From positions 1,236,637 through 1,300,636 of the forward strand of contig NZ_AP027059.1 in the NCBI RefSeq assembly GCF_030295325.1: a DNA stretch of 64,000 bases, given 5' to 3'. The translations under genes were made by a program, and so were the position numbers. A model generated the notes under the pieces. That model was not told the origin of the DNA. It searched no databases and saw only the letters and a list, made by a program, of their open reading frames with translations. Origin of the DNA: Haliovirga abyssi. GTDB taxonomy: Bacteria; Fusobacteriota; Fusobacteriia; Fusobacteriales; Haliovirgaceae. Positions within the stretch are counted from its first letter, which is position 1; each line of letters begins with the position of its first letter. Of this stretch, positions 8,424-48,708 are shown in pieces.

Positions 8424-10247
8424 CTATTCTACTGTAACACTTTTTGCAAGATTTCTTGGTTTATCCACATCTAAGCCTCTTTTATTAGATATATGATATG
8501 CTAACAGTTGTAATGGTAAAACTGTTAAAATTGGTGAAAAAATTTCATCAACTTCATGTATTCTTAATATTATATCTGCATGTTCTTTTATTTTTTCATC
8601 ACCATCAGTTGCTACTGCTATAATTTTACCACTTCTAGCTTTAATCTCTTGAATATTACTAATTACTTTATCATATGTATCACTTTTTACAGCTATTGCT
8701 ACTGTTGGAACTTCTTCCTCAATCAATGCTATTGGTCCATGCTTTAATTCTCCAGCAGGATATCCTTCTGCATGAATATATGAAATTTCTTTTAATTTTA
8801 ATGCTCCTTCTAATGCTATTGGATAATTTATATTTCTTCCAATAAACATAAGACTATTTACACCTTTAAATTCTTCTGAAGCTTTTAATATCTCATTATC
8901 TCTTTTTAAAACTTCCGCAATCATTTCAGGTAATTTTTTTAATCCATCTACAATATATTTTCTTTTCTCTAAAGATAAAATATTTCTTTCTTCTCCAAAA
9001 TATAATAAAAATAGGTATAAAGCTGTTAATTGAGATACAAATGCTTTTGTAGATGCTACTCCTATTTCTGGACCAGCATTTGTGTAAATCGTTCCATCTG
9101 ATTCTCTTGTAATAGTACTACCAACTACATTTATAATCCCAATAACTTTAGCTCCTTTTTTCTTAGCTTCACGAAGCCCAGCTAAAGTGTCTGCAGTTTC
9201 TCCTGATTGACTAATTACAATTACAAGATTTTTTTCGCTTAAAATAGGATCTTTATATCTAAATTCAGATGCTACATCAACTTCAGTGGGTATTCTCAAA
9301 TTTTGTTCTATTAAATATTTTCCAACTAATCCTGCATGATATGAAGTACCACAGGCCACAATGTTTATCTTTTCAATTTTTTCTAAATCTTCTTTAGTAA
9401 GATTAATTCCATCCAGTTTCACACTGCTATCCGTTATTTTACCTCTTAATGTATCTTCTACAACTCTAGGTTGCTCATATATCTCTTTTAACATAAAGTG
9501 ATCATATCCATTTTTTTCAGCCATTTCAATAGACCAATCAATTTCTGTAATCTCTTTTATTTTTTCATTTCCTTTTAAATCTGTAATAACTACTTTTTCT
9601 TTTGTTAAAATAGCTAATTCACCATCATCCAAAAATATAACTTTTTTCGTATGTTCTAGTACTGCTGGAATATCAGAAGCTATCATATTTTCATTTTCAC
9701 CAAGTCCAATTACTAGTGGTGACCCTTTTCTAGCTGCAATTATTTTATCTTGTTCTCTCAATGAAATAACTCCAAGAGCATATGCTCCTTCTAAATATTT
9801 AACAGCTTTTTTTACTGCTCCAAATAGATCTCCAGTATAATACTCTTCAATAAGATGAACAATTACCTCTGTGTCTGTTTCAGATACAAATTTATGTCCT
9901 TTTTTTATAAGCTCATCTTTTAATTCTCTATAGTTTTCTATAATACCGTTATGCACAAGAGCTAACTCTTTATTACAATCCAAATGAGGATGAGCATTTA
10001 AAACTGTAGGTTTCCCATGAGTTGCCCATCTAGTATGACCAATTCCAATATTTCCTTGTATATATTTTTTATTTAATATTTCTCCTAAAGAATCTAATTT
10101 CCCAATAGCTTTATTTAATTCTATTTTATTATCTTCTATAATAGCTATCCCTGCCGAATCATATCCTCTATATTCAAGTTTAGCCAATCCATTATATAGG
10201 ATTGTTTTGGGTGCTTTATCTCCTATATATCCTACTATTCCACACAT
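8424..10247 (-). CDS. glmS: Glutamine--fructose-6-phosphate aminotransferase (isomerizing)
   Basis: Makes glucosamine-6-phosphate from fructose-6-phosphate and glutamine, the entry to peptidoglycan and lipopolysaccharide amino sugars. The 607-residue length is standard. Residue 2 is the catalytic cysteine (MCGIVGYIG); the glutaminase domain has HTRWATHG and HNGIIENY, followed by two SIS domains (ACGTSYHAG, SQSGETADT) and the end DKPRNLAKSVTVE. GGAGAAAA lies before the ATG. The 112-base leader shows no glmS ribozyme core that I can recognise. A terminator follows the gene. Confidence 0.97.
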   Translation of the reverse strand: MCGIVGYIGDKAPKTILYNGLAKLEYRGYDSAGIAIIEDNKIELNKAIGKLDSLGEILNKKYIQGNIGIGHTRWATHGKPTVLNAHPHLDCNKELALVHNGIIENYRELKDELIKKGHKFVSETDTEVIVHLIEEYYTGDLFGAVKKAVKYLEGAYALGVISLREQDKIIAARKGSPLVIGLGENENMIASDIPAVLEHTKKVIFLDDGELAILTKEKVVITDLKGNEKIKEITEIDWSIEMAEKNGYDHFMLKEIYEQPRVVEDTLRGKITDSSVKLDGINLTKEDLEKIEKINIVACGTSYHAGLVGKYLIEQNLRIPTEVDVASEFRYKDPILSEKNLVIVISQSGETADTLAGLREAKKKGAKVIGIINVVGSTITRESDGTIYTNAGPEIGVASTKAFVSQLTALYLFLLYFGEERNILSLEKRKYIVDGLKKLPEMIAEVLKRDNEILKASEEFKGVNSLMFIGRNINYPIALEGALKLKEISYIHAEGYPAGELKHGPIALIEEEVPTVAIAVKSDTYDKVISNIQEIKARSGKIIAVATDGDEKIKEHADIILRIHEVDEIFSPILTVLPLQLLAYHISNKRGLDVDKPRNLAKSVTVE

Positions 10248-10359: not shown

Positions 10360-10599
10360 TTAATGCACTTTATATTTCAATTTTTCTATCTCATCAACTG
10401 ATAATCCTGTTGAAGTTGAAATTATTTTTATATCTATTCCATTTTTTAATAATTCTATTGCTATTTCTACTTTTTCTCTATTTTTCCCTTGCTCTATTCC
10501 TCGCTCGATTCCTTGTTCGATTCCTTGTTCGATTCCTTGTTCGATTCCTTGCTCTATTCCAACTTGATATATATTTGTCATTTCCATCGTTATACCCAT
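10360..10599 (-). CDS. Predicted internal short product (RpnS-like antitoxin) of Rpn copy A
   Basis: Within copy A, in the same frame, an ATG at 10599 is preceded by GGAGGTGA (10607-10614), eight bases complementary to the 16S rRNA 3' end and 7 bases from the ATG. This is a stronger site than that of most genes here. Starting there gives a 79-residue protein: MGITMEMTNIYQVG, then six GIEQ/GIER-type repeats and the C-terminal helix region. In known Rpn systems the separately translated C-terminal part inhibits the full-length nuclease. The internal site is seen; its use is inference. Confidence 0.6.
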   Translation of the reverse strand: MGITMEMTNIYQVGIEQGIEQGIEQGIEQGIERGIEQGKNREKVEIAIELLKNGIDIKIISTSTGLSVDEIEKLKYKVH

Positions 10600-11304
10600 T
10601 TGTTCTTCACCTCCAGTTAGCCTTTTTACCTCATCTTCATATTCTAATTCCAATTCTTTTGGTAAATACAATAGACTATCTAAAAATTTAAATATTTTCT
10701 CTATTTTTTCTCTTTTATATCCTTTTTTCAATAATAATTTAGTTAATTGATATTTGAATTTTAATCTATCTAATTCTTTACCTTCACTTTTTATTGTATA
10801 TAATCCTGCTAATACTACCATTGCAAATGGATTATTACTTTTTATCAATTCTTCTTCTCTTTGTTTTAATATTTTATAAGATATATATTCATACCTTAAT
10901 TTTGTTCTATAAAATTCATATTCAAATATATTTGGTTCATAATCTTTTCTACTATCTGTAAATATTGATAATGCTACTATCTTTTTATTATATTTATCAT
11001 ATATTCTATAAAAATATTTGAACATTCTTTCACTAAACTCTTTTTCGTAATATCCTTGTATTTCTACATGAATTAATATCCAATTTTCCTCTCCTGTTTT
11101 CATATAAACTTTTACAATTCTATCTGCATATCTTTGCTCTTTTCTTGTCTTTTGAAATATACCTGACACCTCTTTATCCAAAAATTCATAGCCTCTTTCA
11201 AAATCTATATTGGGATACAGATCTGTCATAAAAAAACTTACAAATTCTTCAAATAAATCTTCTATTATCTCTTTCCATAATATATCTGGCATATATTTTT
11301 TCAT
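10360..11304 (-). CDS. Rpn-family PD-(D/E)XK nuclease, full-length form, tandem copy A
   Basis: A 314-residue member of the Rpn (recombination-promoting nuclease / YhgA-like) family. The nuclease core has D61 and the E81-x-Q83 motif (HVEIQG) in the usual order. After the core, a helical region ends in GIEQ-type four-residue repeats (about 240-270) and a C-terminal helix-turn-helix-like tail (ISTSTGLSVDEIEKL). Rpn proteins of enteric bacteria are DNA-cutting toxins that act against phage and are blocked by a small protein translated from the 3' end of the same gene; copy A has the matching internal start (10599). It is a near-identical neighbour of copy B, with its own AAGGAG before the ATG. 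Confidence 0.85.
   Translation of the reverse strand: MKKYMPDILWKEIIEDLFEEFVSFFMTDLYPNIDFERGYEFLDKEVSGIFQKTRKEQRYADRIVKVYMKTGEENWILIHVEIQGYYEKEFSERMFKYFYRIYDKYNKKIVALSIFTDSRKDYEPNIFEYEFYRTKLRYEYISYKILKQREEELIKSNNPFAMVVLAGLYTIKSEGKELDRLKFKYQLTKLLLKKGYKREKIEKIFKFLDSLLYLPKELELEYEDEVKRLTGGEEQMGITMEMTNIYQVGIEQGIEQGIEQGIEQGIERGIEQGKNREKVEIAIELLKNGIDIKIISTSTGLSVDEIEKLKYKVH
10487..10558 (-). repeat. 12-bp coding minisatellite in Rpn copy A (six units)
   Basis: Six head-to-tail units of consensus CCTTGYTCKATT, each encoding one GIEQ or GIER step. Copy B has five units (11523-11582). The number of units is the only length difference between the two proteins. Confidence 0.9.
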
Positions 11305-11395
11305 ATAATTCTCCTTTTAAGAACGTTTAAAACTAAATTTTTAAGTATATATATCACTAAAATTAAATATACTACTCAAAAATTATCCTTTTTCC

Positions 11396-11623
11396 TTAAT
11401 GTACTTTATATTTCAATTTTTCTATCTCATCAACTGATAATCCTGTTGAAGTTGAAATTATTTTTATATCTATTCCATTTTTTAATAATTCTATTGCTAT
11501 TTCTACTTTTTCTCTATTTTTCCCTTGCTCTATCCCTTGCTCTATTCCTCGCTCTATTCCTTGTTCGATTCCTTGCTCTATTCCAACTTGATATATATTT
11601 GTCATTTCCATTGTTATACCCAT
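11396..11623 (-). CDS. Predicted internal short product (RpnS-like antitoxin) of Rpn copy B
   Basis: Same arrangement as in copy A: GGAGGTGA (11631-11638) followed after 7 bases by an in-frame ATG at 11623. The predicted product is 75 residues with five GIEQ-type repeats. The ribosome-binding site and the ATG are kept unchanged although nearby third positions differ between copies. Confidence 0.6.
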   Translation of the reverse strand: MGITMEMTNIYQVGIEQGIEQGIERGIEQGIEQGKNREKVEIAIELLKNGIDIKIISTSTGLSVDEIEKLKYKVH

Positions 11624-12328
11624 TTGTTCTTCACCTCCAGTTAGCCTTTTCACCTCATCTTCATATTCTAATTCCAATTCTTTTGGTAAATACAATAGAC
11701 TATCTAAAAATTTAAATATTTTCTCTATTTTTTCTCTTTTATATCCTTTTTTCAATAATAATTTAGTTAATTGATATTTGAATTTTAATCTATCTAATTC
11801 TTTACCTTCACTTTTTATTGTATATAATCCTGCTAATACTACCATTGCAAATGGATTATTACTTTTTATCAATTCTTCTTCTCTTTGTTTTAATATTTTA
11901 TAAGATATATATTCATACCTTAATTTTGTTCTATAAAATTCATATTCAAATATATTTGGTTCATAACCTTTTCTACTATCTGTAAATATTGATAATGCTA
12001 CTATCTTTTTATTATATTTATCATATATTCTATAAAAATATTTGAACATTCTTTCACTAAACTCTTTTTCATAATATCCTTGTATTTCTATATGAATTAA
12101 TATCCAATTTTCCTCTCCGGTTTTCATATAAACTTTCACTATTCTATCTGCATATCTTTGCTCTTTTCTTGTCTTTTGAAATATACCTGACACCTCTTTA
12201 TCCAAAAATTCATAGCCTCTTTCAAAATCTATATTGGGATACAGATCTGTCATAAAAAAACTTACAAATTCTTCAAATAAATCTTCTATTATCTCTTTCC
12301 ATAATATATCTGGCATATATTTTTTCAT
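11396..12328 (-). CDS. Rpn-family PD-(D/E)XK nuclease, full-length form, tandem copy B
   Basis: The 310-residue product is nearly identical to copy A, differing by one four-residue repeat and isolated substitutions (for example V80I and D/G after TDSRK). D61 and E81-x-Q83 are intact, so both copies could be active. The duplication also covers the ribosome-binding site and about 20 bases upstream, and ends at the stop codon. Between the copies are about 90 AT-rich bases. The very small divergence means recent duplication or ongoing gene conversion. Its internal start is at 11623. Confidence 0.85.
   Translation of the reverse strand: MKKYMPDILWKEIIEDLFEEFVSFFMTDLYPNIDFERGYEFLDKEVSGIFQKTRKEQRYADRIVKVYMKTGEENWILIHIEIQGYYEKEFSERMFKYFYRIYDKYNKKIVALSIFTDSRKGYEPNIFEYEFYRTKLRYEYISYKILKQREEELIKSNNPFAMVVLAGLYTIKSEGKELDRLKFKYQLTKLLLKKGYKREKIEKIFKFLDSLLYLPKELELEYEDEVKRLTGGEEQMGITMEMTNIYQVGIEQGIEQGIERGIEQGIEQGKNREKVEIAIELLKNGIDIKIISTSTGLSVDEIEKLKYKVH
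11523..11582 (-). repeat. 12-bp coding minisatellite in Rpn copy B (five units)
   Basis: Five units of the same 12-base consensus as in copy A, in a different order of the variants (TTGCTC, TCGCTC, TTGTTC). Confidence 0.9.
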
Positions 12329-12473
12329 ATAATTCTCCTTTTAGGAATATCTAAAAATAAATTTTCTCTATTTAGGTACAATAAAAAAATAAATTCGTCA
12401 AAATTGTTTGAGAAAATCTGTAGATTTATTCATATTTTTCAAACAAATGACTCATTAATTTTTTTAAAGTCCC

Positions 12474-13169
12474 TTAATCTCTAGAATTACCAAATATTCT
12501 AAGTATATATATAAACAAATTAATAAAATCTAAATATAATTGTAAAGCTCCGAAAATTGATGCTTTTTCTAATGCTTGTTCATCTCCATTTGCCATTTCA
12601 ATTACCATATATTTTATTCTATTTACATCAAAACCAATTAAAGCAGTAAAGATAATCACACCCATATAACTAATAATCCAGTATAACATTGAAAGATGTA
12701 AAAATATATTAACAACTGATGTAATTATTAAAATTATAATTCCTGCATAAAGCATTGGACCAAATTTTGTTAAATCTTCTTTAGTAAAATATCCATAAGC
12801 TGCCATTACTCCAAAAATAATAGTAGTAAGAGCTAATGAAAAAATGACTGATGCTGGTGTAAAAAACATAACAAATATAGAAAATGTAAATCCATTTAAT
12901 ACTGCATACAGAAAAAACAATCCTTTTGCAGTTGTTGCTGACACCTTATTTATAAGAAATGATAAACCCATAACTACTGCAAATTCTAATACTATAATCA
13001 CTATATAACTACTCATTACAATTGAAGTTAAACTTGGTGATGTCATTACTGCATATGCTGTCCCTGCAGTAACTAATAAAGCCATAAACATCCAACTGAA
13101 AATTCTGCTTACTAATTTTGATACAACAGTTTCATCCATATAACTATAATTTTGATTTACTTTAAACAT
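12474..13169 (-). CDS. Bax inhibitor-1 / YccA-YbhL family membrane protein
   Basis: A 231-residue inner-membrane protein with about seven hydrophobic helices, an N-terminal segment ending in VVSKLVSRIFSWMFMALLVTAGTA-like sequence, and the family's end region ALQLYLDFINLFIYILRIFG. BI-1 proteins are pH-gated calcium leak channels in the members studied; the bacterial role is not settled. The start is set at the ATG at 13169, which has GGAGGGG six bases upstream; an upstream in-frame ATG at 13205 would add 12 residues without a ribosome-binding site. Confidence 0.9.
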   Translation of the reverse strand: MFKVNQNYSYMDETVVSKLVSRIFSWMFMALLVTAGTAYAVMTSPSLTSIVMSSYIVIIVLEFAVVMGLSFLINKVSATTAKGLFFLYAVLNGFTFSIFVMFFTPASVIFSLALTTIIFGVMAAYGYFTKEDLTKFGPMLYAGIIILIITSVVNIFLHLSMLYWIISYMGVIIFTALIGFDVNRIKYMVIEMANGDEQALEKASIFGALQLYLDFINLFIYILRIFGNSRD

Positions 13170-13225
13170 AACTATCCCCTCCATATTTTTACAATTAAAA
13201 TCCAAAAGCTTGTTTCTAAAAAAAA

Positions 13226-47841: not shown

Positions 47842-48708
47842 CTATTTTTTAAGAATTCTGATTTGCTCTTCGCTTAAACCTGTTTTTTCTGATATTGTTT
47901 TTATATCTAAAATATCTAATAAGCTTTTTGCTATTTTTATTTTTTCTTCTTCTCTTCCTTCTTCTCTTCCTTGTTCTATTCCTTCTTTTTGACCTTTTTT
48001 AAAACCTTTTTTCTCAGCTGTTTTTATTGCTGCTTCTTCATCTCTTAGCCATTTTAATCTTGCTTCATAACTTTCTCGTTCTTCATAATTTAACGACATA
48101 TCATCTAACAATTCTACTGCTTTTTTTATACTTTCTACTTCTGCTAACTCTTTTGGTAATCTATTTTTATCATATCCTTCTGCTTTTTTTAAAAAATTAA
48201 CCCATCTATCTAACATTGTACTCATTTTCTCATCATATTTTTCTAATTCTATAAAATGTATTTCTAAATGATTTATAAATTCTTTTCCGCTTTCACTGTT
48301 TATTATCTTATATATATTATGATATTTTTCTTCATCTAAACATCTAAAATTCAATATATTTATACTTATAGTTTTCTTTAAATTATCATAATTTACTCCT
48401 GCAGACAGTTGCCCGGAATATAATCTTGCCCAATAATATAACGCTCTCTTATCAAAATATTCTTGATCGATAACCTGCATCTCTATATTATACCATTGCC
48501 CTCTTTGATCAATTGCTTTTATATCTAATATAGACAACTTGTCATTCCTGAAATTCTTATCATTATAAGGATTTTTTAATTCTAATTCTTTCACCTGATC
48601 TTCTTCTGACACTATTGAATTTATTAAATCTATTAATAATTTTTTATTTGATTCTGTCCCAAATAATTTTTTAAATGCAAAATCTACTCTTGGATTTATT
48701 CTACACAT
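47842..48708 (-). CDS. Rpn-family PD-(D/E)XK nuclease / putative transposase (TIGR01784 type)
   Basis: A 288-residue protein of the group usually annotated as Rpn family nuclease: start NPRVDFAFKKLFGTESNKKLLIDLINS, nuclease residues D62 (LDIKA) and E76-x-Q78 (NIEMQV). The C-terminus has a short charged repeat (KGFKKGQKEGIEQGREEGREEE) and the tail ISEKTGLSEEQIRILKK, like the tandem pair at 10.4-12.3 kb. Overall sequence is far from that pair. No internal ATG with a ribosome-binding site is seen before the tail, unlike the tandem genes. It is not flanked by inverted repeats of an insertion sequence. Confidence 0.82.
   Translation of the reverse strand: MCRINPRVDFAFKKLFGTESNKKLLIDLINSIVSEEDQVKELELKNPYNDKNFRNDKLSILDIKAIDQRGQWYNIEMQVIDQEYFDKRALYYWARLYSGQLSAGVNYDNLKKTISINILNFRCLDEEKYHNIYKIINSESGKEFINHLEIHFIELEKYDEKMSTMLDRWVNFLKKAEGYDKNRLPKELAEVESIKKAVELLDDMSLNYEERESYEARLKWLRDEEAAIKTAEKKGFKKGQKEGIEQGREEGREEEKIKIAKSLLDILDIKTISEKTGLSEEQIRILKK

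Follow-up and report, generated by a model that had tools for sequence, protein, structure and literature searches.

Introduction to the locus

Two adjacent rpn genes in a 64,000-nucleotide stretch of the genome of Haliovirga abyssi (hereafter: the window) raise the question of whether each of them encodes, in addition to a full-length nuclease (RpnL), a short C-terminal protein (RpnS) that is translated from a start inside the gene and blocks the nuclease, and, if so, whether the products of one copy could neutralise those of the other. Gene-within-gene antitoxins of this kind have so far rested on experiments in E. coli and on one gene of C. difficile. We conclude that the window pair probably represents the RpnL/RpnS gene-within-gene toxin-antitoxin type, with the two copies predicted to be insulated from each other, and that it is in kind a known system.

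Results and discussion

The tandem rpn pair

The two copies (Table 1) are about 98% identical. Apart from one 12-base unit, 15 base substitutions separate them, of which six fall in the repeat array; of the 15 codons changed, 11 encode the same amino acid, and the proteins, the repeat-unit difference aside, are 99% identical. Beyond the genes, the similarity extends into a leader of about 40 bases, and inspection of the flanks by eye revealed no shared 3' flank; for an insertion sequence, as the annotation 'putative transposase' would imply, terminal inverted repeats and a target-site duplication would be expected.

Table 1. Coordinates of the tandem rpn genes, their predicted internal elements and the flanking genes (positions in the window)
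Feature	Coordinates	Strand	Remarks
glmS, flanking the rpn pair	8424..10247	minus	
rpn copy 1, full-length RpnL-like nuclease	10360..11304	minus	314 aa; six four-residue units; intact ORF
Predicted internal RpnS product of copy 1	10360..10599	minus	79 aa; in-frame ATG with Shine-Dalgarno sequence, conservation in homologues, C-terminal profile match to RpnA-S (7th0)
GIE(Q/R) array of copy 1	10489..10560	minus	six 12-base units
Internal Shine-Dalgarno sequence GGAGGTGA of copy 1	10607..10614	minus	predicted unpaired in local RNA fold
Leader of copy 1, with its own Shine-Dalgarno sequence (AAAAGGAGAATTAT-ATG)	11305..11344	minus	resembles the leader of copy 2 right before the start codon
rpn copy 2, full-length RpnL-like nuclease	11396..12328	minus	310 aa; five four-residue units; intact ORF
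Predicted internal RpnS product of copy 2	11396..11623	minus	75 aa; modelled as one long helix and two short ones
GIE(Q/R) array of copy 2	11525..11584	minus	five 12-base units
Internal Shine-Dalgarno sequence GGAGGTGA of copy 2	11631..11638	minus	
Leader of copy 2, with its own Shine-Dalgarno sequence	12329..12368	minus	
Bax1-I family gene, flanking the rpn pair on the other side	12474..13205	minus	

Both members of the pair possess the N-terminal PD-(D/E)XK nuclease domain (Rpn/COG5464) with an intact active site: the catalytic D61 and E81-x-Q83 are present in both copies and invariant across 16 homologues. Copy 2 matches the Rpn family model TIGR01784 (NCBIfam) with 52.5 bits, and copy 1, with 48.8 bits, falls just short of the cut-off of 52.1. 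The nuclease part scores 18-19 bits against Transposase_31, under the cut-off of 21, and receives no curated call from that family, and a direct phmmer comparison of the full protein with the PDB gave no match.

An internal start with a strong Shine-Dalgarno sequence

The preliminary description had pointed to a sequence resembling a Shine-Dalgarno (SD) sequence 7 bases before an in-frame ATG and ahead of the GIEQ repeats, and the ORFs bear this out: GGAGGTGA-AGAACAA-ATG occurs in frame within both genes, with the ATG at 10599 in copy 1 and at 11623 in copy 2, and the products that begin there have the lengths of 79 and 75 residues given for them. The statement that both copies have the sequence holds for its presence in each, but not for the independence of the two cases, which are only 15 bases and one 12-base unit apart; as the copies are near-identical, their agreement amounts to one observation, not two. 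The ATG follows the GGAGG core after 10 nt, a longish gap, and the full GGAGGTGA after 7 nt.

The energy of pairing with the anti-SD sequence in the 16S tail is -13.6 kcal/mol at the internal start, against -8.9 at the next internal ATG, which makes it the strongest site among the 337 in-frame internal ATGs of 55 window genes. It also outscores 98% of gene starts, including those of the rpn genes themselves (-8.9); the internal start of E. coli rpnA that experiments have established (M244) reaches -8.3 by the same method. In the whole 2.73-Mb genome, GGAGGTGA-N5-9-ATG occurs 17 times, two of which are the window copies, compared to four occurrences for the reversed control. Promoter-like sites number 24 in 2.2 kb versus 18.6 in shuffled sequences, so that an internal promoter would be indistinct from the background of this AT-rich DNA.

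The internal site might nevertheless be a mere by-product of codon use in a Gly/Glu-rich segment, with the full-length protein, a stand-alone nuclease, being the only one made. Such an explanation gains from the observations that randomly chosen synonymous codons, with the residues fixed, reach -13.6 in about 16% of draws, that E/G-rich helices are common here, and that other rpn genes of the same genome are devoid of the site. With a chance of about 16%, selection could not be demonstrated from the window by itself, and the proof comes from the homologues.

Conservation of the internal start in homologues

Homologues of the subtype were drawn from genome contigs, from the seven genomes of those contigs and from 396 genomes of the phylum of one locus (L012), and the resulting alignment comprises 94 distinct sequences from several phyla. 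The position of the internal Met is occupied by ATG in 65 of the 94 and by GTG in 10. Wherever Val stands at this position it is encoded by GTG (10/10), as opposed to 66 of the 231 Val codons in the remainder of these genes, although these cases are not independent because most come from one related group. Upstream of the start, codon choice was compared with expectations from each gene's own codon usage. Four residues before the start (-4) Glu is always GAG (39/39, 16.4 expected) and at -5 it is GAG in 44 of 54 cases (20.9 expected), whereas GAG is avoided for Glu in the spacer, both at -8 (2/34, 13.0 expected) and at -2 (2/17, 7.5 expected). At the level of codons, this is the profile of a putative SD sequence followed by an A-rich spacer. 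The preference persists after thinning to less than 60% identity (13/13 GAG at -4, 5.0 expected), as well as in the equally thinned set outside Bacteroidota, where GAG accounts for 19 of 23 cases at -5/-4 (8.0 expected, z 5.2). The residues that encode the SD sequence vary from one homologue to another (GGEEQ, GGKDK, EAKKI, EQEVV, EEEFI), which argues for selection on nucleotides.

In Evansella, a nuclease-less copy follows each of two full-length genes of the subtype. These two copies are ORFs of 111 and 123 codons, and their sole strong starts are the same internal site; judging from the ORFs, the predicted C-terminal product is here retained without the nuclease. That these copies keep the site, that GAG is chosen at -5/-4 and avoided at -8/-2 irrespective of thinning, that GTG is the sole Val codon at the start, and that the SD sequence is built from different residues in different homologues all speak against a by-product of codon use, which we consider improbable. 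The conservation at synonymous sites that the preliminary description had proposed as a check is thus present, in the form of the GAG bias and the retained start codon, and the refutation it had named, relatives that lose the internal start while keeping the nuclease, does not apply within the subtype, most homologues keeping the start. Selection of the internal start at the codon level, across several phyla and over wide protein divergence, suggests that the nested product itself has been preserved by evolution.

Part of this signal may have another cause, since one clade on the side of Bacteroidota (L159-L187) shows a strong GAG preference despite main rpn starts that lack an SD sequence. 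Bacteroidia ribosomes reportedly ignore SD sequences (PMC9976891, PMC6847099); the internal SD-like GAGGAG kept in this clade is possibly an SD sequence that is used selectively, or the result of a recent transfer. In homologues from Saprospiraceae and Cytophagales the Met is retained without an SD sequence. Bacteroidota had been considered as a natural control without SD sequences and were set aside, because this other clade among them keeps the GAGGAG motif.

The C-terminal domain and its likely function

A profile built from 26 Rpn C-terminal domains retrieves E. coli RpnA-S, crystallised as PDB 7th0, with an E-value of 2.9e-6. AlphaFold2 models the 75-residue product as one long helix (7-48), which bears the repeats, and two short helices; the model superimposes on 7th0 with an rmsd of 0.9 A across 42 columns (TM 0.84 by target, prob 0.98). 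The corresponding Foldseek E-value of 0.89 is not significant, the chain being so short. The repeat segment is of low confidence in both models, with pLDDT largely below 50. The Foldseek search of the PDB with the full-length model yielded no significant match, and BLASTP produced no meaningful alignment between RpnS and RpnA, which are too diverged for a pairwise search. Taken together, the profile and the model point to a C-terminal domain homologous to the three-helix fold of RpnA-S. The gene-within-gene design claimed in the preliminary description gains support from this homology, together with the nuclease family, the catalytic residues, the position of the repeats and the conservation of the SD sequence and start.

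The internal start could also give rise to a short product that is built into the nuclease complex as a structural subunit or activates it, in the way Cas11 relates to Cas10. Genes-within-genes elsewhere do encode assembly subunits (Cas10d/Cas11d, cited in PMC10327210), and RpnA-S and RpnA-L form a 2:2 complex (PMC10327210). On the other hand, RpnA-S, RpnB-S, RpnC-S and RpnP2-S each counteract their own long form in E. coli (PMC10327210), and it is RpnA-S that the C-terminal domain of the window proteins matches; we regard a role as subunit or activator as unlikely.

Repeat number and a possible insulation of tandem copies

In both copies the repeats begin 13 residues past the internal Met, within the range of 8-20 residues described for known RpnS proteins (PMC10327210). 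Repeat number is hypervariable across the Rpn family (PMC10327210), and in RpnC a single added repeat abolished neutralisation in both directions (PMC10327210). Since the pairing of RpnS with RpnL depends on repeat number, the copies with six and five units are predicted not to cross-neutralise. We compared six tandem arrays among the loci gathered for this analysis, in which the nuclease parts are at least 96% identical, and in none of them does an adjacent pair share the same antitoxin region: adjacent copies differ by repeat number or, in one case, by C-terminal sequence. This pattern is suggestive only, because such repeats slip easily.

An array in Sulfurospirillum (L061, 2229-6958) comprises five rpn genes in tandem, whose nuclease parts are identical and whose repeat runs count 11, 12, 7, 14 and 3 units. 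In another tandem pair (L091, 446-2310, genome G011) the nuclease part and repeat number are the same and the C-terminal tails are 75% identical, a pattern reminiscent of an exchange of the antitoxin end.

We tentatively propose that tandem rpn genes are insulated parallel pairs, in which the nuclease stays alike and the antitoxin region is driven apart, so that the partners stop cross-neutralising. Under this proposal, and just as tentatively, the difference of one unit in the window pair would mark the minimal case and the Sulfurospirillum five-gene array the extreme. It is quite possible, though we would not count on it, that the copies instead stem from a recent duplication, are redundant and have stayed alike through drift or gene conversion, that the one-unit gap is due to replication slippage, and that the antitoxins cross-neutralise freely. 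The small number of substitutions, most of them synonymous (11 of 15), the proneness of a 12-base array to slippage and the hypervariable repeat number of the family fit such a duplication, whereas the loss of RpnC neutralisation both ways upon one extra unit and the consistent difference between adjacent antitoxin regions in the six arrays do not. This alternative bears on the insulation step alone and leaves the rest of the explanation given here untouched. With its one-unit difference, the window pair offers a natural counterpart to the published plus-one-repeat experiment, and cross-neutralisation between duplicates can be tested on it directly.

Genome setting and distribution

The host genome (two contigs) contains 15 full-length rpn ORFs and one truncated (L001-L010, L095, L103, L106, L118, L121, L122). 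A strong internal SD-ATG near the repeats is present in six of the 15, and the nine without it are of the TIGR01784-core/PF12784 type; alternative starts (ATA, ATT, CTG), checked in the nine rpn genes that have no internal ATG, provided only weak sites or sites inside repeats. The nested start is therefore not universal in the family but confined to some subtypes. The window contains another, third rpn gene (47842-48708, minus strand, L008), which is of the PF12784 type (226 bits) and has a short 12-base array, with no SD sequence and start near its repeats. Internally deleted rpn ORFs of about 80 and 160 aa, in which the N-terminal start is fused to the C-terminal domain, were found at L127 (G011:C18) and L107 (G004:C1); they are possible stand-alone RpnS genes in a subtype without an internal start.

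Any match to TIGR01784 occurs in nine of 98 genomes of the phylum, the genus- and family-level sets consisting of the genome of H. abyssi alone. The subtype of the window pair has no copies in the other genomes among these 98, and its nearest full-length relative, about 50% identical, comes from a record labelled Candidatus Magnetocorallium; this distribution makes it likely, as far as sequences can tell, that the subtype arrived by horizontal transfer. The viral collection contained no relative, and the phage collection one C-terminal match. The pair is surrounded by genes for an aldehyde dehydrogenase, GlmS, a Bax1-I protein, a tyrosine phosphatase-like protein and threonyl-tRNA synthetase, and PADLOC gave no match for these neighbours, which are housekeeping genes and do not form a defence island at the locus.

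Proposed mechanism

We suggest that each gene would give rise to two proteins. The full-length RpnL would be a PD-(D/E)XK DNA endonuclease with a C-terminal oligomerisation domain; ribosomes would initiate also at the internal SD/ATG, and thus release RpnS, the free C-terminal domain with its long helix of GIEQ repeats and two short helices. RpnS would pair via the repeat helix with the matching domain of RpnL and hold the nuclease inactive, and we propose this block of RpnL by its own RpnS because it has been demonstrated for RpnA, RpnB, RpnC and RpnP2 in E. coli (PMC10327210). Release of RpnS, perhaps upon phage infection, would allow RpnL to cut DNA, and the copies with six and five units would act as two insulated toxin-antitoxin pairs rather than as one doubled dose. 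We infer translation of RpnS, inhibition, insulation and phage defence in the window genes from these parallels. RpnP2 of E. coli is the only system for which protection against phages has been demonstrated (PMC10327210); the antiphage role and the expansion of the cassette put forward in the preliminary description may apply here, and we retain both as suggestions. The sequences by themselves establish, in our view, the two ORFs, an apparent internal start and its selection in homologues, the homology to RpnA-S, and the difference by one unit.

Comparison with known systems

The window pair shares its N-terminal PD-(D/E)XK nuclease with E. coli RpnA-L/RpnA-S (yhgA, b3411), RpnB-E and RpnP2. 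As in RpnA-E and RpnP2, an internal SD sequence and ATG would yield the C-terminal domain, and the four-residue repeats are located in the first helix of this domain, predicted to fold as in the RpnA-S crystal 7th0. Unlike in E. coli Rpn proteins, the nuclease part is too diverged for a Transposase_31 call, the internal SD sequence outscores that of rpnA by far (-13.6 vs -8.3), and two tandem copies stand one unit apart.

Outside the enterobacteria the design is already established for C. difficile, whose rpn contains an internal RpnS demonstrated in E. coli (PMC10327210). This gene resembles the window pair in being low-GC and non-enterobacterial and in having an internal ribosome-binding site and start, a likeness drawn from the description rather than from the sequence; unlike the window pair, it is not described as a tandem pair in the available part of its source (PMC10327210). 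The E. coli rpnE-ypaA locus comprises a full-length gene and a stand-alone rpnS (PMC10327210), an arrangement matched by the Evansella homologues, in which a nuclease-less copy with the same start site comes after a full-length gene, whereas each member of the window pair is adjoined by a second full-length gene and no stand-alone copy.

The rpn genes of Ca. Magnetocorallium paracelense (L011/L131/L135) are about 50% identical to the window pair and share with it the GG(E/K)xx-MG(I/L)T(M/L)EMT segment and a strong internal SD sequence (-13.6, -16.5), but differ in repeat sequence and tail, and their genome contains 16 matches to the subtype. New among all these systems would be a pair that constitutes the sole copies of its subtype among the 98 phylum genomes, in tandem and one repeat apart, whose products are predicted not to cross-neutralise.
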